DNA of 64,000 bases from Indolivaga macrotermitis (lineage in GTDB: Bacteria; Bacteroidota; Bacteroidia; Bacteroidales; Dysgonomonadaceae), in NCBI RefSeq assembly GCF_900128985.1, contig NZ_FQUC01000008.1:1-64000 (forward strand), given 5' to 3'. Shown one piece after another: positions 1,046-19,805 of the stretch. Every line of letters starts with the position of its first letter. The stretch's first letter is position 1. A model generated the notes under the pieces. That model did no database searches. It saw only the letters and a list, made by a program, of their open reading frames with translations, and had not been told where the DNA came from. Made by a program: the position numbers and the translations under genes.

Positions 1046-2365
1046 TTACCTAAAATTATTATTAAGCAGATATCTTAATGGAGATAGTATTCGATTTGCA
1101 ATCGAGCGGTCTTCTGTGATAATCTCGGCCGTTCCATTCAGTTCCCCTGTAAAATCAAAGACTACACCGGTAGTAGACTTCACTCCACTGGATAAAGCTA
1201 TTTCTATTGTATATTTATTTTCGTTAGTTACCAATGAAATATTTTTTACCGTCCCTTGCAGAACTCCATATTCCAGATACGGGTATCCAGACATTTTAAG
1301 GTTTGCCTGTTGCCCGACTTTTACCTTTCCTGCACCCGATTCTGCGATTTCGACTTTGCCGATAAGGTCCCCCTGATAGCTTGGCACAACAACAAAAACT
1401 CTGTCTCCGGTTTTTACAGTTTGGTTTTTAGACCAATAAGTATTAAAGGTTACAGTTCCTGCCTGCGGAGCCACCAATAAATATTTTTGCTCCCAGTTTT
1501 CAATCTCCGAAATCAACTCCCTGTATGCTGAAGCTAACTCTGAATACTTACTATTTTTATCTTGTAAATATTCTACAGTAAGTTTTGACGCCGAATTTGC
1601 CAATTTTGTATTTTCTATATTTTCTGATAATATAGTAGCTTCGAGTTGCTGTAATACTTGTCTGATGCTTAAATAATTTTGTTCGGATTCTTCCATCTCC
1701 GATTTTGACAATACTCCTTTTTCATATAAAGACTTATCTCTGTCAAAAGTAGACTTTGCCAATTCCGATTCTTTCCGTTTCAGTTCTAATTGCGAATATA
1801 GGTTAGAAGAATACACGGTTCTCCCCTTGATTTGCTGATGAATAGATTTCTCATCTTCTTTCGTCAGGTTCAACGAAATGAAATTATCATAATTAACGGC
1901 AGCTTTTATAAATATTGAAAACGTCGACTGCAATTCACCCAGTTCATAAGTACGGGATAATAATTCGGATGGCAGATTTACTAATGAATCGGATACTATC
2001 GTCCTTTCTGTCAGATTTTTCTTAACCAACATAACATCCTCGGTTTTTGCCGGATTGTCAATCACTGCTATTACATCGCCCTGCCCGACCATCTGTTTAT
2101 CTTCTATATAAAGCTGCTTTAACCTTCCGTCCGATTTTGCCACAAGCCACGATGGTGGATTTTGGGTTGTCACGCTCACCCCTCCTGATACAACATCAGG
2201 ATAACGAAAGACAAAACAACCTATAAATATCAAACCCAGTATAACGCAAATAGCAGCAGTGCCACATCTGACTAAGACATGAGGAGAACGCGATAGTATA
2301 TCTTTAACCTCATCACTCCTCAATTCGAGGTCTTTATGCTTCTGATTTATTTCGTCTTCCATCAT
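1046..2365 (-). CDS. HlyD-family membrane fusion (adaptor) protein
   Basis: A 439-residue periplasmic adaptor of the HlyD/MFP family, which links an inner-membrane ABC exporter to an outer-membrane channel. There is a short cytoplasmic N-terminus, one membrane segment at about residues 31-53, a biotinyl/lipoyl-like half motif near residues 70-105, a long coiled-coil hairpin rich in Lys, Glu and Ser (about 170-285), and a second lipoyl half plus beta-barrel domain to the C-terminus. The start codon shares one base with the stop of the upstream C39 exporter (TAATG), so the two are translationally coupled. In Bacteroidota such pairs export double-glycine leader peptides. No TolC homologue is in the window. 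Two adjacent ATGs (MM) make the exact start uncertain by one codon. Confidence 0.93.
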   Translation of the reverse strand: MMEDEINQKHKDLELRSDEVKDILSRSPHVLVRCGTAAICVILGLIFIGCFVFRYPDVVSGGVSVTTQNPPSWLVAKSDGRLKQLYIEDKQMVGQGDVIAVIDNPAKTEDVMLVKKNLTERTIVSDSLVNLPSELLSRTYELGELQSTFSIFIKAAVNYDNFISLNLTKEDEKSIHQQIKGRTVYSSNLYSQLELKRKESELAKSTFDRDKSLYEKGVLSKSEMEESEQNYLSIRQVLQQLEATILSENIENTKLANSASKLTVEYLQDKNSKYSELASAYRELISEIENWEQKYLLVAPQAGTVTFNTYWSKNQTVKTGDRVFVVVPSYQGDLIGKVEIAESGAGKVKVGQQANLKMSGYPYLEYGVLQGTVKNISLVTNENKYTIEIALSSGVKSTTGVVFDFTGELNGTAEIITEDRSIANRILSPLRYLLNNNFR

Positions 2366-4560
2366 TATAATTCCAATTGATTTTTTACCAAATGATAATA
2401 CGCTCCTTTCTTTGCCGACAACTGATCATGTGTACCGACTTCTATCACCGAGCCTTTTTCGAGAACAATTATCTGATCGGCATTACGGACAGTACTCAGC
2501 CGATGAGCCACAATTACAGATGTACGCCCTTCGAAAAAATGATCCAGATTTTCCATTATCACTTTTTCGTTATTCGCATCAAGGGCATTTGTCGCCTCAT
2601 CCAGAAACACAAATTCGGGATCTTTATATATAGCACGGGCTATAAGTATGCGTTGCTTTTGCCCCTGACTTAGACCATGTCCGTCATTTCCTATTTTCGT
2701 ATTGTACCCCAACGGCAAGCCTTCAATAAAATCGGTCAGGTTTGCCATCCCTGCTGCTTTCAACAGCAGGTCTTTGTCTATAATCTCTGCTGCCGGAGCT
2801 ATATTACGGGCAATACTATCTGAAAAGATAAAACCTTCTTGCATAACTACACCACACCTCTTTCGCCACTCACGTTTACTATAATTTTCGAGATTGTTTT
2901 CTCCAAGGACAATCACTCCTTTCTGGGGAGGGTAATAGCCTAATAACAATTTCAGTAATGTAGTTTTTCCACTACCACTGGTTCCGACAATAGCTGTCTT
3001 CTTTCCTGCAGGAATCATAATACCTATATCATTCAGTACCCGGTTGCCTGCCGAAGTTGCATCATATGCAAAAAATAATTGAGCAACTATGAGATTTTTT
3101 CCTGACGGAATTTCCTGTATCCTACCCTCATCCTGAATAGTTTCATCTTCCTGATCCTGTAAATCGCTCAGGCGGTCGAGACTTAATCTGGCATCCTGTG
3201 TTTTACGGGCAAAGTCTATAATCTGATCTACCGGGCTATTCAATTGTCCTATGATATACTGTACCGCCATCATCATCCCCAGAGTCATTTCGCCATCTAT
3301 CACAAACTTAGCGACCAATGCTGTGATTAATATATTCTTTGTCTGATTAATGAATATTGCACCGGAATCTTGATACTGCCCCAAAGCCAACCCCTTTATA
3401 CGAAGACGGAACAGACGCGCCTGAATTCCCTCCCAAGCCCATCTTTTTTGCTGTTCGCAAGCGTTCAGCTTTATTTCCTGCATACCGGTAATCAACTGGA
3501 TTACGGCACTTTGATTTGCCGATTGCTGTGCAAAATTCTTATGATCCAATTCAGCCCGCTTTTTCATAAAAAGCCAAACCCAAAGAAAGTATAGGAGGCT
3601 GCCTATCATGAATATGGCAAAAATCTTCAAACTATAGAAAGCAAGGACAATACCCAGCACAATAATATTAAAGAACGAAAACAGGACATTCAGACTCGAA
3701 TTCGTCAGATAATCCTGTATCCTTGTATGGTCGTTAATACGTTGAAGTATATCTCCGACCATCTTGGTATCGAAATACCCCATCGGCATTCGCATCAACT
3801 TAATAAGGTAGTCCGAGATAAGGGCTATGTTGATACGGCTTCCCAGGTGTAACAATATCCATCCTCTAATAAATCCTACTGTAGCATTACTCAGGGTAAG
3901 TACCAACTGAGCAATCAGTACGAGATAGACAAAATTGAGATTCTGAGTATTGATACCTATATCAACAACTGCTTGCGACAAGAAAGGCAATATCAGCATC
4001 AACAAACTACCTATAGCCAAACCCAGAATCAACTGGGTTACCATTGACCGGTAAGGCTTCAGATATGAAAACAGAAAGCTGAAACCTTTGCGACGTTCAA
4101 TGTCGTCATTGTATTTATAAAAGTCGGGTGACGGTTCCAATAAAAGGGCAATTCCATGAGGTACGCCTTCTTCGGTTGTCGAAATCCAACTTTTGGAAAA
4201 TTCTTCTTTTGTGAATTTCAATTTCCCTCCGGCCGGGTCTGCAACATATACTTGCGTTCCATTCTTTCCTTGCTTGATATCATATACAACTAAAAAGTGC
4301 TCTTGATTCCAATAAACGATACAAGGCAACGGAGCTTCACACAATTGTTCGAAAGAAATACTGACACCCATCGTCCGGAATCCCAGCGACTCAGCAGCTT
4401 CGCTTATTCCTAACAATGAGACTCCTTCTTTGGTTAGCCGTGCTTTTTGCCGCAATCTCTCCAATGAAAAATGTTTACCATAAAAAGCCGCGATCATACG
4501 TAAACACGTAGGACCGCAATCCATCGCATCGTGTTGTTTGTAAAGAGGAAATTTCCGCAT
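2365..4560 (-). CDS. C39 peptidase-containing ABC exporter (double-glycine leader processing)
   Basis: A 731-residue bifunctional exporter of the PCAT type, which removes a GG leader and exports the peptide. Domain order: N-terminal C39 cysteine peptidase (about 1-145), ABC transmembrane domain (about 165-450, several hydrophobic helices), and ABC ATPase (about 495-731). The peptidase has Gln9, catalytic Cys15 (in MDCGPTC), His88 (QEHFLVVY) and Asp108 (VADPAGG), so it looks active. The ATPase has Walker A GTSGSGKTT near residue 525-533, signature LSQGQ near 628 and Walker B FLDEATNAL near 650, all intact. It overlaps the HlyD-type gene by one base. Candidate substrate in the window: the GG peptide at 18520-18639, though that pairing is inferred. 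Product could be a bacteriocin, signal or other modified peptide. Confidence 0.95.
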   Translation of the reverse strand: MRKFPLYKQHDAMDCGPTCLRMIAAFYGKHFSLERLRQKARLTKEGVSLLGISEAAESLGFRTMGVSISFEQLCEAPLPCIVYWNQEHFLVVYDIKQGKNGTQVYVADPAGGKLKFTKEEFSKSWISTTEEGVPHGIALLLEPSPDFYKYNDDIERRKGFSFLFSYLKPYRSMVTQLILGLAIGSLLMLILPFLSQAVVDIGINTQNLNFVYLVLIAQLVLTLSNATVGFIRGWILLHLGSRINIALISDYLIKLMRMPMGYFDTKMVGDILQRINDHTRIQDYLTNSSLNVLFSFFNIIVLGIVLAFYSLKIFAIFMIGSLLYFLWVWLFMKKRAELDHKNFAQQSANQSAVIQLITGMQEIKLNACEQQKRWAWEGIQARLFRLRIKGLALGQYQDSGAIFINQTKNILITALVAKFVIDGEMTLGMMMAVQYIIGQLNSPVDQIIDFARKTQDARLSLDRLSDLQDQEDETIQDEGRIQEIPSGKNLIVAQLFFAYDATSAGNRVLNDIGIMIPAGKKTAIVGTSGSGKTTLLKLLLGYYPPQKGVIVLGENNLENYSKREWRKRCGVVMQEGFIFSDSIARNIAPAAEIIDKDLLLKAAGMANLTDFIEGLPLGYNTKIGNDGHGLSQGQKQRILIARAIYKDPEFVFLDEATNALDANNEKVIMENLDHFFEGRTSVIVAHRLSTVRNADQIIVLEKGSVIEVGTHDQLSAKKGAYYHLVKNQLEL

Positions 4561-4732: not shown

Positions 4733-5158
4733 TCAAGATTCTACTTTCTCATACTTTTTATTACTACTCTTCACAACACTTTCACTTGAATAAATAACAA
4801 CATTACTCCATAATTTAAGAAATGCAGGTTTCGATATCTCAATATTTTTATTGATAACAGGATCGAAAAAGGTAACATTTCCATCAGAACTTATTTTCTT
4901 CAGCATAACAAAACGCCCATCGCTGATACGAAGATGCAATAATGCGTGTTTACGCTCTTTTTGCAGAGTATCAAAGTCGGCCAGATAAGTCCGACTATGA
5001 AGGTCATAATCCTTTAATAAATTTGATATAGTTATGATCGGCGATTTCTTAGACTCAAACTCATACTGAACCTTCAGAATATTTCTGTTATGAACAATAT
5101 TACGAGCCGAAAGAAACGACGATATCAAATTGACTAAATAAAAATGAGAGGCATTCAT
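4733..5158 (-). CDS. Stand-alone degenerate C39-like domain protein
   Basis: A 141-residue protein with no signal peptide or clear membrane segment. Residues about 70-120 align by eye with the second half of a C39 peptidase domain: the pattern 'h-hhLh-x-GRFVMLKKI-x-FFDP-x-EISKPAFLKLW' parallels the exporter's segment around its His88 and Asp108. The catalytic Cys is absent from the N-terminus and the His position is Arg83, while Asp99 remains, so it should not cut peptides. It resembles the C39-like N-terminal domain of Bacteroidota VKOR/thioredoxin fusion proteins, but ends right after that domain. It precedes the exporter on the same strand but has its own terminator. A leader-binding or chaperone role is possible; this is inference from fold and location. 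Confidence 0.65.
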   Translation of the reverse strand: MNASHFYLVNLISSFLSARNIVHNRNILKVQYEFESKKSPIITISNLLKDYDLHSRTYLADFDTLQKERKHALLHLRISDGRFVMLKKISSDGNVTFFDPVINKNIEISKPAFLKLWSNVVIYSSESVVKSSNKKYEKVES

Positions 5159-11631: not shown

Positions 11632-13362
11632 ATGCAAAACGAATTTACCATCAGCCGGGGAAAAGTAATGATCAATTTTTCTGTCAAGTATTGCGATAAT
11701 CGTCAGAAATTATTGAATAGTTATGGGTTCAAACAGGTGATAAACTCTTTTATTCAGGTGTTGAAAAAAGATAATGTAATCATCTATGACCATTATATCA
11801 AAAACTTTAAAAACGATGATGAGTTTGCCTCAACATTAGTACGGGTCTTCAAATTCCTCACAGTTTGCGACGAAGGTGAAATTCATAAAGTAAATACCAA
11901 ATATTCTGAATACTTCAGTGACAAAGATTTGTTCATTGAGTTTATCGAACTTCTTTATGCATACTGGCGCCGTTTAGACCGTATATCTGTTGTTCGTAAC
12001 AGCAGTCTCGGAGACGGGCTTCAAAATGTACGCTTTATTCAAGCTAACAGCCAATTTAATGATCTTATTCTGGCAACATACCGTCGTATAGAAGAAACCG
12101 TTATGGGATTCCAGCACAGGGTTTACCGCCAGCTGGTAGCAGGTGCTAACGCCGGACTTACCCTAAACGATGTGCCATGGAACTGCCCTGTTGAGTATAA
12201 CGGACTATCGACTGTTCCATTTATCAGTACCGTTGTTTTCCAACCGCCGTTAATTACATATACGAAGCGCAATACACGCTCGGGAATATTTCAGGAACAT
12301 GATTCAAACCCAATAGCTAACCTCAACCTAAATGATGATGAATGGTACATCTTCCCGGCATGGGTAGGTAATATGCTCACATTCGTTTACTTCCACAAAG
12401 ATTTTATCGATCACGGCTTAGGCTTATCTAACCTCTTCGAACTGGCTACTGAAAGCAGTTACATCGGAAAGAAACCTGACATGATTTATATATTTGGCTA
12501 TCCTGACGGGCATAATGAAAAGAGAACATTCTATTACAAAGACAAGAAAAACGATATCATGATAGGCTATGCCAACTATTGCGACGATATCGACTACTTC
12601 GGATATATGAAGAAAATGCTTCTGACACTGCACAATATCAAGCAGATGGAGAATGCTCGCCTTCCGATCCATGGTGCGATGGTAAATATTGCCCTAAAAA
12701 ACGGAAAGGAATCTAACATTATAATCATGGGGGACAGTGGTGCAGGAAAATCTGAAAGCCTTGAAGCCTTCCGTACCCTGAATGAAAAATATATACGCCA
12801 TATGCGTATTATATTCGATGATATGGGCTATCTGAATATCGAAGAAGATGGTTCTGTAAAGGGTTATGGTACCGAAATCGGAGCTTTTGTCCGTGTAGAT
12901 GATCTGGATCCCTCATATGCATATCAGCAACTCGACAGAGGAATTTATACCAACCCCGATAAGGTAAATGCCCGTGTAACGATACCTGTATCTACCTACG
13001 AAGTTATTTCAAAAGGATACACCGTAGATTACATGTTATACGCAAACAACTATGAAGAATCGGATCACAAGATCAAGCTATTCGACAATCTCGATAATGC
13101 TATAAAAGTATTCGAAGACGGAGCTCGCAAAGCAAAAGGAACAACATCCGAGGTAGGTCTGGTCAAATCTTACTTTGCCAATCCGTTCGGCCCTGTACAG
13201 GAACAATCCCTTGCAGAAAAACTGGTTCGTAAGTACTTTGCCAAAATGGACGAAAACGGAGTTAAGATCGGAGAAATCCACACTTCACTTGCCATTGACG
13301 GCAAAACTAAAGACGGACCGAGAATGGCAGCCGAAGAGCTATTCTCCCTGATCAATGAATAA
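11632..13362 (+). CDS. PEPCK/HPr-kinase-fold protein of unknown substrate
   Basis: A 576-residue cytoplasmic protein. Its C-terminal half carries a P-loop GDSGAGKSES near residues 364-373, whose wording (G-D-S-G-x-G-K-S-E) is that of HPr kinase and of the related ATP-type phosphoenolpyruvate carboxykinase fold. A downstream acidic pair (FDDMGYL, near 397-403) could hold the metal, and a PEPCK-like basic/acidic stretch follows. The N-terminal half (about 1-330) matches nothing I recognise. It sits 89 bases upstream of ppc, separated only by a stem-loop, which hints at a role in PEP/oxaloacetate metabolism or in phosphorylating a protein. It may be labelled PEP carboxykinase by homology, but standard PEPCK motifs are not complete. 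The substrate is open. Confidence 0.7.
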   Translation: MQNEFTISRGKVMINFSVKYCDNRQKLLNSYGFKQVINSFIQVLKKDNVIIYDHYIKNFKNDDEFASTLVRVFKFLTVCDEGEIHKVNTKYSEYFSDKDLFIEFIELLYAYWRRLDRISVVRNSSLGDGLQNVRFIQANSQFNDLILATYRRIEETVMGFQHRVYRQLVAGANAGLTLNDVPWNCPVEYNGLSTVPFISTVVFQPPLITYTKRNTRSGIFQEHDSNPIANLNLNDDEWYIFPAWVGNMLTFVYFHKDFIDHGLGLSNLFELATESSYIGKKPDMIYIFGYPDGHNEKRTFYYKDKKNDIMIGYANYCDDIDYFGYMKKMLLTLHNIKQMENARLPIHGAMVNIALKNGKESNIIIMGDSGAGKSESLEAFRTLNEKYIRHMRIIFDDMGYLNIEEDGSVKGYGTEIGAFVRVDDLDPSYAYQQLDRGIYTNPDKVNARVTIPVSTYEVISKGYTVDYMLYANNYEESDHKIKLFDNLDNAIKVFEDGARKAKGTTSEVGLVKSYFANPFGPVQEQSLAEKLVRKYFAKMDENGVKIGEIHTSLAIDGKTKDGPRMAAEELFSLINE

Positions 13363-16172: not shown

Positions 16173-16850
16173 TTATTTATCTATCAGTTTGTATCCGACT
16201 TTCGATATAGTGATCAGGTCAACATACCTGTTTCCGTCTATATATTTCCGTATTTTGTGAGCCAGGTTATTTAACGAATGTTCTTTCTGGTAAATATCTT
16301 CTTCGTTCCATAACAACCATACGATTTTCTCTTTTGTCACCACTGTATTCATATTCTCACACAATAGTCTCAAAAATGCAGCCTCGGTTTTCGCTATTCT
16401 AATTTCTTCGTCATCAATAGCGATTACCTGTTCTATCGGATTAAAGGAAAAGCCCGAAAACACGAAACGTTTTTCGCCCGATTCGACCACTCTATTCAGA
16501 AGATTATTTATTCTAGCCAATAATTCTTTGGTTCCATACGGCTTTTTCTGATAATCGACATGCCTGAGTTTCAACCCTCTCTCAACGTCCTTAAAATGGG
16601 TCTTCCCTGTCGTAAAAATAATAGGCAAAGTAGGGTAATTCTGTCTGATATTTTCGGCAACATCAAAACCGCTGACATTATCTTCCAGATCGACATCCAT
16701 TAACAATAAATCAACCTGATCTTGCTCCAGCATCCCCAAAGCTTTCTCTCCTCTACTTATATGTTTCACCCCAAAACCCTCTATTTCAAGATTCTCACAA
16801 AGCATATAAGCTAAGTTTTCATCATCTTCTACTAATAATATATTTGCCAT
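16173..16850 (-). CDS. OmpR-family response regulator
   Basis: A 225-residue two-domain regulator. The receiver domain (1-120) has Asp9, Asp10, the phospho-acceptor Asp52 (LLLMDVD), Thr81 and Lys103 followed by Pro104. The DNA-binding half (about 130-225) is a winged helix of the OmpR/PhoB type. It is related to, but clearly diverged from, B. fragilis RprY. The kinase gene lies upstream on the same strand with 105 bases between them, and a separate -7 element (16902-16909) sits in that gap, so the regulator may be made alone as well as with the kinase. Target genes are unknown; the divergent GG peptide is an obvious candidate. Confidence 0.95.
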   Translation of the reverse strand: MANILLVEDDENLAYMLCENLEIEGFGVKHISRGEKALGMLEQDQVDLLLMDVDLEDNVSGFDVAENIRQNYPTLPIIFTTGKTHFKDVERGLKLRHVDYQKKPYGTKELLARINNLLNRVVESGEKRFVFSGFSFNPIEQVIAIDDEEIRIAKTEAAFLRLLCENMNTVVTKEKIVWLLWNEEDIYQKEHSLNNLAHKIRKYIDGNRYVDLITISKVGYKLIDK

Positions 16851-16955: not shown

Positions 16956-18350
16956 TTATAATACTCCGTTTGTAGGCAATTTTATGATAAACTCACTTCC
17001 TACATTTATTTCACTCTTCACGTCGATAAGCCCGTTGTGCTTCTCCACGATACGTTTTACATAATTCAGTCCTATACCATGTCCTTTAATACTGGCAGTC
17101 TTCGCCACTCTTGCATATTTATCAAATATTACCTGCAAATCTTCTTTTGCAATACCCAATCCATTGTCTTTTATACTAATACAAGTATAACCACCTTCAA
17201 CATACAATCGGATATGGATATCTATCACGGCTTTCGAGTACTTAATTGCATTACCCAACAAATTAGAAACAACCTGTTCTATATGCGCCTTATCGCCAAC
17301 TATATCAGGCGATTTCAGTTCATTATCTGCATCTATATCAATCGGCTTGGTTGTAGTACCTTCTGCACCGTCGGCCAAATCGTAAACAATCTTCACCAAA
17401 TCAAATTCTGCTTTATGTATTTCGAAGATACCTTCATCATCCATAGCTAAACTCAGGAGCATATCGGTTTTCTCCGTCATTTTTACAATCTCATGGTCAG
17501 CGATTTTCAACAGCCTGCCACGTTTCTCGGCATCCATAATTATCTTCTCATTATCGAGTGAACTGATTGCCTGTTTCAGTACGGATAGAGGCCGTTTAAA
17601 TTCGTGCGAAACTTCGGAGAAGAAATCGCTTTTAAGATGGGCTAGTTTTCGTTGTTTAGACAAAGTCTTCAACTGGAAATATAAACAATAGATGCAAAAC
17701 AGCGATAATAAAAGTGACAACACTAACATCCATGCCATCTGCGGATACACTTTACTCCAAGGATTGATAAGCACAACGCGTAATACTTTAGTTTGTGCTA
17801 AATTTAGCGGTATATCTTTTGATTGTAAAGTGCTCGAAGGGTGTTCTGTCGGAAGTAGTGTTGATTCCAATACTTTATTGGTTTCCTTATCGACAATCTC
17901 GACATAGAAATAAAAATTAATATTGCTTCTATGCATACTCTCCTCAATAGAAGAACTAAAAAGTTTCAAATCTATAGGATTAGTTTTACTAACAAACTCC
18001 TCTAATGCAATATTTAAAATAGCTACGGCATTAGGTTCAGATTGAAGGGACTCCGACTTATTTTTTATCTTAACTACTTTTGTTGTATCCGTAACCAAAG
18101 AATTTAACGGAGTATCGACCCCCATAAACTCAATTTGTGCCGCTGGCTTATCTCTGCCCTTTACTAATCTTTTATTAAGATTAGCACCATAAGTTTCAGA
18201 AGTTAACAAATTCAACTCCCGAGTAAGTAAGTCTGTGTTTGCCTGAAACAAACGGTATAGAATCCCCGCCTGAAATATAAATATGACTATAACAAAAATG
18301 ATAGAAATGCGGGTTAAAAACTTGTCAGAAAATGTGGCACTCTTCATCAT
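16956..18350 (-). CDS. Membrane sensor histidine kinase
   Basis: A 464-residue kinase with two membrane segments (about 15-33 and 205-226) enclosing an extracytoplasmic sensor domain of about 170 residues. The H-box is SHEFKRPL with phospho-acceptor His249; it is followed by N-box NLLGNAIKYS, G1 DNGLGI and G2 GHGIGLNYV. No HAMP domain is visible between TM2 and the H-box. The sensor domain has no family I recognise. The gene is divergent from the 39-residue GG-leader peptide gene; their starts are 169 bases apart. A kinase with a large periplasmic domain next to an exported peptide could sense it, but that is inference. The ATG-ATG start (MMKS) is well placed. Confidence 0.95.
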   Translation of the reverse strand: MMKSATFSDKFLTRISIIFVIVIFIFQAGILYRLFQANTDLLTRELNLLTSETYGANLNKRLVKGRDKPAAQIEFMGVDTPLNSLVTDTTKVVKIKNKSESLQSEPNAVAILNIALEEFVSKTNPIDLKLFSSSIEESMHRSNINFYFYVEIVDKETNKVLESTLLPTEHPSSTLQSKDIPLNLAQTKVLRVVLINPWSKVYPQMAWMLVLSLLLSLFCIYCLYFQLKTLSKQRKLAHLKSDFFSEVSHEFKRPLSVLKQAISSLDNEKIIMDAEKRGRLLKIADHEIVKMTEKTDMLLSLAMDDEGIFEIHKAEFDLVKIVYDLADGAEGTTTKPIDIDADNELKSPDIVGDKAHIEQVVSNLLGNAIKYSKAVIDIHIRLYVEGGYTCISIKDNGLGIAKEDLQVIFDKYARVAKTASIKGHGIGLNYVKRIVEKHNGLIDVKSEINVGSEFIIKLPTNGVL

Positions 18351-18484
18351 GGCATTTTTTAGAAAAAAAAGTTTATAAATATAAGAATATTAATCTTTAT
18401 TTCAGCTAAAAACAAGCAAAGAGCAGGCTAAAAATATGAGAAAAAAATTACATTTCAATTATACACAATCCCCTTTTTGCTGTA

Positions 18485-18492
18485 TAGTTTTG
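18485..18492 (+). promoter_or_regulatory. -7 element for the GG-leader peptide gene
   Basis: TAGTTTTG is an exact TAnnTTTG and lies 27 bases before the ATG at 18520. This predicts a short leader of about 20 bases. The -33 region has no TTTG at 19-21 bases, which suggests a need for an activator, for example the adjacent response regulator. Confidence 0.55.
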
Positions 18493-18519: not shown

Positions 18520-18639
18520 ATGAAAAAAGTAGCGTTAGACCAATTCAAAAAACTTAGCTCTAAAGAGTTAAGCAAAGTACAAGGAGGAGCAAAATATTAT
18601 CTTCTTGTAAATGGGACTCTTATTGAAGTTGAAATTTAA
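18520..18639 (+). CDS. Double-glycine leader peptide precursor (39 aa)
   Basis: A 39-codon gene from ATG 18520 to TAA 18637-18639. Residues 1-23 form a classic Bacteroidales GG leader: MKK start, then KKLSSKELSKVQGG with Leu, Leu and Val in the spacing that C39 peptidases read. Cutting after Gly23 releases a 16-residue core, AKYYLLVNGTLIEVEI, which is hydrophobic and has no Cys, so a lanthipeptide or disulfide bacteriocin is unlikely. It resembles the 'natural product precursor, GG-Bacteroidales' leaders (TIGR04149). It has its own -7 element and a very strong terminator, and is divergent from a histidine kinase. No maturase gene lies beside it; the only matching exporter in the window is at 2365-4560. 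Real gene: quite sure. Function (signal, toxin or modified product): open. Confidence 0.8.
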   Translation: MKKVALDQFKKLSSKELSKVQGGAKYYLLVNGTLIEVEI

Positions 18640-18649
18640 TATAAAACTT

Positions 18650-18690
18650 AAGAAACGGGGCAGATATTAAAATATCTGCCCCGTTTCTTT
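18650..18690. terminator. Bidirectional terminator between the GG peptide and mrp
   Basis: A perfect 19-bp inverted repeat (18650-18668 and 18671-18689) with a very tight apex and GC-rich core, flanked by A on the left and T on the right. It starts 10 bases after the peptide stop codon and touches the mrp stop codon at 18690, so it serves both converging genes. A dedicated terminator this strong for a 39-codon gene supports its reality. Confidence 0.9.
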
Positions 18691-19805
18691 TATTTATGAG
18701 TTACATCTACTTTTATTGTAGGTGCTTTTTCTTTATTCCGCTTTTCGGTTGCAGTAACCAAGTTATCGGCTAATGTACCGAAAGCCGTTCCTGTCATAGA
18801 ATCTTCATTCAATGCAACAGGTGCTCCATTATCTCCTGCTTCGCGTATACTCTGTACCAGAGGTATTTGACCGAGCAAATCGATATTCATTTCTTCCGCT
18901 AAATTCTTAGCCCCGTCTTTCCCAAATATATAATACTTATTATCAGGCAATTCGGCAGGCGTAAACCATGCCATATTCTCTACAATACCGAGTATAGGCA
19001 CATTTACTTTTTCGTTGGTAAACATATCGATACCTTTACGAGCATCCGCCAATGCTACTTCCTGAGGTGTACTTACTACTATAGCTCCTGTTATAGGCAA
19101 TGTCTGAACCAGAGTTAAATGAATATCGCTTGTTCCCGGAGGGAAATCTATCAGAAAATAATCCAGTTCTCCCCAATTTCCATCCGTAATCAGCTGTTTC
19201 AGGGCATTCCCGGCCATAGCACCTCTCCACACAATAGCACTTTCTTTCTTTACGAAAAAGCCTATGGATAGCATTTTCACACCATATTTATCGACAGGTA
19301 CTATCATTTCACGCCCATCCACCGGTTCAAGAAAAGGTTGTGCATCTTCTTCGTTGAACATCTTAGGCATTGAAGGCCCGAAAATATCGGCATCAAGCAA
19401 TCCTACTTTAAATCCTTTTTTCGCCAGAGCTACAGCCAGATTTGCAGTAACAGTACTCTTACCTACTCCACCTTTACCGGAAGTAACTGCTATTATATTT
19501 TTAACCAGAGGCAACACACGGGGAGGTTCTTCCTTCTGTACCTCTTGTGTCAAAACTTCAATATTACCCTTAATTTCGATATCGGGATCGACAAAAGTAA
19601 GTATTGCAGTTTCGCTTGCTTTTACCACAGATTTGATAAACGGATCATTTGGTTTTTCGAAAACTAATGAAAAACTCACTTTTTTCCCCTCAATATGGAT
19701 GTCATCCGAGACGAATCCCATCTCTACAATATCCTTCCCTGTTCCAGGGTAACGTACATTTCTTAAAGCATCAATTATCAGCTTTGGATATATATTAGTA
19801 CTCAT
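18690..19805 (-). CDS. mrp: Mrp/NBP35-type P-loop ATPase (Fe-S carrier family)
   Basis: A 371-residue protein: N-terminal MIP18/DUF59 domain (about 1-85) and a Mrp ATPase domain with deviant Walker A GKGGVGKST at residues 110-118, later DADIFGPS and FLIDFPPGTSD. The family carries and transfers Fe-S clusters in the cytoplasm. The C-terminal CxxC that normally holds the bridging cluster is missing: the region after ENMAWF (about residues 278-283) reads TPAELPDNKYY with no Cys. ATPase motifs are intact. It is followed closely by trmB upstream (trmB stop at 19814, eight bases from its start), so the two are one transcription unit. Confidence 0.95.
   Translation of the reverse strand: MSTNIYPKLIIDALRNVRYPGTGKDIVEMGFVSDDIHIEGKKVSFSLVFEKPNDPFIKSVVKASETAILTFVDPDIEIKGNIEVLTQEVQKEEPPRVLPLVKNIIAVTSGKGGVGKSTVTANLAVALAKKGFKVGLLDADIFGPSMPKMFNEEDAQPFLEPVDGREMIVPVDKYGVKMLSIGFFVKKESAIVWRGAMAGNALKQLITDGNWGELDYFLIDFPPGTSDIHLTLVQTLPITGAIVVSTPQEVALADARKGIDMFTNEKVNVPILGIVENMAWFTPAELPDNKYYIFGKDGAKNLAEEMNIDLLGQIPLVQSIREAGDNGAPVALNEDSMTGTAFGTLADNLVTATEKRNKEKAPTIKVDVTHK

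Follow-up and report, generated by a model that had tools for sequence, protein, structure and literature searches.

A double-glycine peptide gene paired with a sensor kinase: a candidate autoregulated signal in Bacteroidales

Peptide pheromones that are read by sensor kinases are textbook knowledge in Gram-positive bacteria. The streptococcal ComC and BlpC systems consist of a precursor with a double-glycine (GG) leader and a variable core, a C39 exporter, and a kinase with its regulator, and they are autoregulated. In ComDE, the kinase is a polytopic HPK10 protein and the regulator is of the LytTR type. For Gram-negative bacteria, Dirix is said to have proposed in 2004 that GG-leader peptides act as signals together with cognate transporters. 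Among the peptides of Bacteroidales, bacteroidetocin has conserved cysteines in its core. Clusters of GG-motif peptides with peptidase-containing ABC exporters (PCATs), bacteroidetocins included, have been described from this order (PMC10352776). As far as the accessible part of that account goes, its precursors either lie in clusters with modifying enzymes or are bacteriocins, and signaling is suggested for a few of the clusters, one of which has a kinase and a regulator (PMC10352776). In the literature that we searched, mostly outside subscription journals and entirely outside bioRxiv preprints, we found no described GG-peptide signal or kinase-read peptide pheromone of Bacteroidales.

We analyzed a 64,000-nucleotide stretch of DNA (the window) containing a small gene whose surroundings resemble these systems. 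The window system would work like ComC-ComAB-ComDE without being a member of it. As in that system and in BlpC-BlpAB-BlpHR, there is a GG-leader precursor, a C39 ABC exporter, and a peptide gene beside a kinase and a regulator; the leader is conserved, the core is variable, and we propose autoregulation here as well. Unlike ComDE, the window kinase is a HisKA protein whose presumed extracytoplasmic domain is flanked by two predicted helices; the regulator is of the OmpR class. Unlike ComC, the window precursor falls below the cut-off of the NCBIfam ComC equivalog NF033214 (24.8 bits against 50), and unlike bacteroidetocin, its core has no cysteine. GG leaders presumably served by PCATs are common to the window and to the clusters described from the same order, but the divergent kinase/peptide pair, the predicted hairpin core, and the repeat box are features that were not seen in those clusters within the accessible part of their description (PMC10352776).

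The peptide gene itself matches what a sequence-only reading had claimed. On the forward strand, an open reading frame (ORF) runs from an ATG at 18520 to a TAA ending at 18639 and translates into 39 amino acids (MKKVALDQFKKLSSKELSKVQGGAKYYLLVNGTLIEVEI). Residues 1 to 23 (18520-18588) form the leader, MKKVALDQFKKLSSKELSKVQGG, and residues 24 to 39 (18589-18636, followed by the stop codon at 18637-18639) form the core, AKYYLLVNGTLIEVEI. The claimed motif LSSKELSKVQGG occupies residues 12 to 23, and the 16-residue core is Cys-free as stated; it is hydrophobic, with a mass of ~1.8 kDa and a calculated [M+2H]2+ of 919.519 when unmodified. Two further elements named in that reading were also found: a -7 promoter element, TAGTTTTG, at 18485-18492 on the forward strand and, separating the peptide gene from mrp, which converges on it, a perfect 19-bp hairpin terminator at 18650-18689 (forward strand; stem 18650-18668/18671-18689), with a folding z-score of -9.2 for the region 18640-18705.

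The assignment of the precursor to known leader families stood in part. The leader exceeded the cut-offs of the Pfam ComC family PF03047 (23.0 bits against 20.4, in a match spanning residues 1 to 23 only) and of the bacteriocin signal model TIGR01847 (18.9 bits against 15.7). Membership in TIGR04149, which had been put forward by name, is ruled out on score (13 bits against 25), and a TIGR04149 search of the whole genome returned no match, as did the same search in every control genome. The NCBIfam leader models scored the peptides of four relatives below their cut-offs, two of these peptides being matched by none of the models. When ten such peptides, the window peptide included, were combined into a profile, the window peptide scored 67.2 bits; reversed, the DNA of the 75 sources searched (518,688 bases) gave 13.9 bits at most. 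Orthology and this reversed-sequence control rule out a chance ORF, and the peptide ORF is a real gene.

Two features bearing on its function had escaped the sequence-only reading: a C39 exporter at 2365-4560 and the conserved pairing with a divergently transcribed kinase at 16956-18350. The latter, our candidate receptor, is a 464-aa sensor histidine kinase on the reverse strand with HisKA (29.6 bits) and HATPase_c (89.8 bits) domains; a weaker match to the GHKL family PF14501 (25.7 bits) also exceeds its cut-off. Its structural model places two long membrane helices around a domain (mean pLDDT, 69.6). A fold search with the sensor domain gave zero matches at an E value of 0.001 (best, 0.074), and scattered matches to dynein light chain were nonsignificant. 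On the same strand lies a 225-aa OmpR-class response regulator (16173-16850) with Response_reg and Trans_reg_C domains and no LytTR match. The best NCBIfam matches of the regulator were RprY (129 bits; cut-off 370) and Bacteroidetes PhoB (123 bits; cut-off 270), yet both scores are so far below the cut-offs that the pair is a member of neither the RprXY nor the PhoRB system of Bacteroidetes. The surroundings are core genome, with mrp, a tRNA-methyltransferase-like gene, PEP carboxylase, and ribosomal proteins, and we found no immunity-like gene or small membrane protein between the kinase and mrp.

The pairing is a constant feature of this kinase. All ten genomes in which we found the sensor-kinase orthogroup, six of Dysgonomonas (the window's included) and four from two other Bacteroidales families, have a GG peptide gene divergent beside the kinase. 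Within the genus, the peptide adjoins the orthologous kinase in 5/5 other genomes compared. A single-sequence search recovered it in four of the five, every one at the kinase/mrp junction; in the fifth (G003) it was found only by profile search, divergent from the kinase and near a contig end. The GG and the layout of the core thus proved to be conserved in relatives. Outside the genus, G038, from another family, has three copies with the core QYIEIIIDGTIYRIRI or a Lys variant and an intact kinase frame (450 aa), and G253 and G333, both congeneric with G038, carry the core TTFCMIVDGKKIYITI or an Ile variant, the G333 kinase being cut by a contig end. In G387, from a third family, the kinase came to light through a sensor profile built without it, and its divergent neighbor is a GG peptide with the core KHIIIFIHGRPIVLEV, which was missed by a regular expression, read by eye, and then found by a profile that included it.

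Kinases of lower similarity behaved differently. We searched 149 Bacteroidales genomes with the window kinase and examined 30 loci, among which the best three (own, G001, and G038) had a GG peptide and the other 27 had none. Searching 393 Bacteroidales genomes with a profile built from eight sensor regions returned five kinases at 275 to 395 bits, with the next best at 88 bits, and zero GG peptides at 25 lower loci. The lower-scoring loci examined therefore lacked GG peptides in 52 of 52 cases (27 + 25, with kinases partly shared between the two sets), where some of the first-look candidates were scored in each genome (6 for the sensor profile, 11 for the window kinase). One loose pattern match among them (L127) had no GG leader when inspected by eye. 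Outside these 52 loci, G001 encodes a second GG peptide with a similar core (GRWVVVDGELVFVNN), divergent from a different kinase/regulator pair. That kinase scored 135 bits in the window-kinase search and 81 bits with the sensor profile, which shows that GG peptides are not entirely absent from the lower tier. The second G001 pair precedes genes for a radical-SAM protein, for three precursor-like peptides of 56 aa with identical sequences, and for a C39 exporter and an outer-membrane protein; the cluster (L041:3251-14213) also holds a DUF6625 protein alongside the kinase, regulator, and GG peptide.

Other searches began from the peptide. An order-wide peptide profile matched 15/393 genomes at an E value of 0.01; beyond Dysgonomonas and G253/G333, the matches were, where readable, different GG peptides or segments of larger proteins, and the G046 locus was cut by a contig end. 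This profile missed G038 and G387, whose leaders differ, which makes peptide-first counts too low. A class-wide profile matched 10/395 genomes at an E value of 0.003, with a maximum of 25.6 bits outside the window's own genome.

The mature part of the peptide varies around a common layout. Core lengths across the family range from 13 to 20 residues, and hydrophobic stretches flank a central Gly in all ten peptides compared; the cores otherwise differ. This Gly is at core position 9 in eight peptides and at positions 7 and 8 in two shorter ones, the G005 core having Gly-Gly with the first Gly at position 8. No pattern of Cys, Ser, or Thr was common to the cores. An AlphaFold model made with the ten sequences has a helix at residues 14 to 19 and strands at 25 to 30 and 33 to 38 (mean pLDDT, 66.6), and this low-confidence model suggests that the core is probably a beta-hairpin around Asn-Gly. 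In Dysgonomonas, mean pairwise identity was 0.55 for the leader and 0.34 for the core, compared with 0.46 for the kinase sensor region, 0.61 for the kinase domain, and 0.70 and 0.86 for the regulator and mrp (the last two computed from five genomes each). Between G253 and G038, identities were 0.80 for the kinase domain, 0.36 for the sensor, and 0.56 for the regulator. Sensor domains frequently diverge faster than kinase domains, which weakens the argument from sensor divergence for a signal, and the comparison is uncontrolled, the one control pair chosen being nonorthologous. DNA changes between the tandem copies in G038 fell mostly at third codon positions (3/3, 8/11, and 5/8), as expected for a gene under selection for its protein.

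Upstream of the gene, three 11-bp direct repeats (ATGAGAAAAAA, ATTACATTTCA, and ATTATACACAA; 18436-18468, forward strand), recognized by hand comparison of intergenic regions, form a putative regulator-binding box. The -7 element, whose consensus is TAnnTTTG, lies 49 bp downstream of the start of the box. Direct repeats of 11 bp suit regulators of the OmpR/PhoB class. A composite pattern made from the window, G004, G038, and G253 scored those four at 21 to 23 of 24, a result that is partly circular. The boxes of G001, G002, and G005, in a like register before the gene, scored 18 to 19 (P = 0.02, 0.013, and 0.008 against Markov shuffles), and that of G387 was weak (score, 17; P = 0.08) and farther from the gene. 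Before the G003 peptide and the second G001 peptide, the box was at chance level. In a noncircular test, a consensus built from G038 and G253 alone placed the window site at the top of 127,902 positions when the three repeats were scored and in second place when the full 49 bp were; either way, it was first of 111 TAnnTTTG sites. Scores of at least 21 of 24 occurred five times in the 433,930 bases searched. Two loci cover one and the same region, which leaves four separate places, all of them ahead of a GG peptide. We found no strong box before the exporter cluster.

The suggestion that a C39 exporter might handle the peptide gained a candidate in the same window. On the reverse strand, 2365-4560 encodes a peptidase-containing ABC exporter in which PF03412 (C39), PF00664 (ABC membrane), and PF00005 (ATPase) exceed their cut-offs in one chain, the architecture of a PCAT. 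It aligns along its entire length with the solved structures of PCAT1 and ComA, and falls below the stricter NCBIfam model TIGR01193 (402 bits against 524). Both C39 matches of the 4.66-Mb assembly lie in the window, and this is the only complete C39 exporter found. The cluster, all on the reverse strand, further comprises an ABC ATPase (153-902), an HlyD-type membrane fusion protein (1046-2365), and a stand-alone C39-like domain (4733-5158) that has zero Cys and so is not a Cys protease. The ORFs scanned in the window included no outer-membrane channel with the exporter, and the contig begins at the window start. Across the orthogroup, a C39 domain exceeded the family cut-off in 10/10 genomes. 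The distance between the peptide and the exporter C39 domain is ~4 kb in G253, 14 kb in both the window and G001, 40 kb in G004, and ~136 kb in G038; in the other five genomes the domain is on a different contig. Downstream of the G253 peptide and on the same strand (L072:8037-14286) are an HU-DUF4469 protein, one bearing a Por-type sorting tail, an HlyD-type protein, and the C39 exporter. Relatives of the Cys-free C39-like domain occur in G001, G002, G004, and G005; in G002, the C39-like gene is beside an ABC gene with no exporter between them, and the G002 exporters are on other contigs.

We propose that the product is probably a 16-residue exported peptide read by the adjacent sensor protein. 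The C39 domain of the exporter would recognize the leader and cut after Gly22-Gly23, a step suggested by established knowledge of such transporters, and the hydrophobic core would then leave the cytoplasm. The presumed periplasmic domain of the divergent kinase would sense the core, the kinase would phosphorylate the OmpR-class regulator, and the regulator would bind the three repeats and activate the peptide gene, so that the loop would autoinduce and could act between cells. A conserved leader, a variable short core, constant pairing with the kinase, fast divergence of the sensor, and a common box are best fitted by an autoregulated signal, and we hold this closed loop of peptide, exporter, kinase, and regulator to be somewhat probable. 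Several results count against it: the box is at chance level in G003 and at the second G001 peptide and weak in G387, and no strong one precedes the exporter cluster; the exporter is distant or on another contig in several relatives; and the NCBIfam leader models fail on four relatives. In addition, a 1.8-kDa peptide arriving from outside could act on a periplasmic sensor only after passing the outer membrane. On the broader claim, that Bacteroidales have a native family of peptide quorum-sensing systems in which GG precursors with short beta-hairpin cores and their own fast-diverging OmpR-class sensor kinases form species-specific signal/receptor pairs, sometimes ahead of radical-SAM peptide clusters, our judgment is evenly balanced. 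If the loop is real, the order would have a defined signal of 16 residues, together with candidates for its receptor, regulator, operator box, and exporter, and a single synthetic peptide and a single reporter would make cell-to-cell signaling in Bacteroidales testable.

The chief rival reading is that the gene encodes a small unmodified bacteriocin or exported effector, regulated by the neighboring two-component system, which would sense something else. The matches of the leader to bacteriocin signal models such as TIGR01847 and the hydrophobic core are in its favor, and the promoter box would be equally expected. However, the adjacent immunity gene expected of a class II bacteriocin is missing, the neighbors being the kinase and mrp; the constant partner is one kinase orthogroup rather than effectors, and the cores are short. 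We regard this explanation as unlikely, although it deserves appreciable weight. It is also conceivable that the peptide is autocrine, the periplasmic core reporting exporter activity or the state of the envelope to the kinase with no signaling between cells. This would suit a sensor region situated between two predicted membrane-spanning helices and a window in which no outer-membrane channel accompanies the exporter, but the HlyD-type fusion protein suggests export across both membranes and the diversified cores resemble specific signals, which leaves this account improbable.

The sequence-only reading had offered a signal and a modified product as alternatives, and it is the former that is favored by the common promoter box and by the association with a kinase/regulator pair. 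GG leaders are common among ribosomally made, modified peptides (RiPPs), and the second G001 peptide adjoins a radical-SAM gene, though the cluster there contains 56-aa precursor-like genes of its own. For the window peptide, the modifying enzyme would have to be encoded elsewhere: as had been stated, no maturase is adjacent, in that no radical-SAM, lanthipeptide, or YcaO domain was reported for the 20 ORFs scanned in 1-26,914 (the region has 25 ORFs of 100 aa or more, the other five being antisense; three of the scanned ORFs matched no family). With the TIGR04149 score and the lack of a common Cys, Ser, or Thr pattern added, a modified product seems very improbable. Smaller still is the chance that the product is a nonexported protein modulating the kinase or regulator directly; the constant kinase neighborhood would be explained, but not the conserved Gly-Gly leader pattern or the C39 domain in every orthogroup genome. 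An exported signal read by the adjacent kinase remains our preferred reading.

Other genes were observed along the way. Within the window, 11632-13362 is a 576-aa ORF that contains a P-loop-like stretch, GDSGAGKSE, and has zero Pfam matches. Elsewhere in the same genome, a small ORF with a GG-leader-like start lies at L045:8009-8173 (contig C20). Two more GG peptides, at L043:8888-9550 (contig C5) and L044:8073-8755 (contig C36), have the core pattern YG[ND]ARGD...F[EQ]ALK, and both directly adjoin a 165- to 175-aa Rce1-like (PF02517) membrane protein, perhaps an immunity or processing partner of the peptide.
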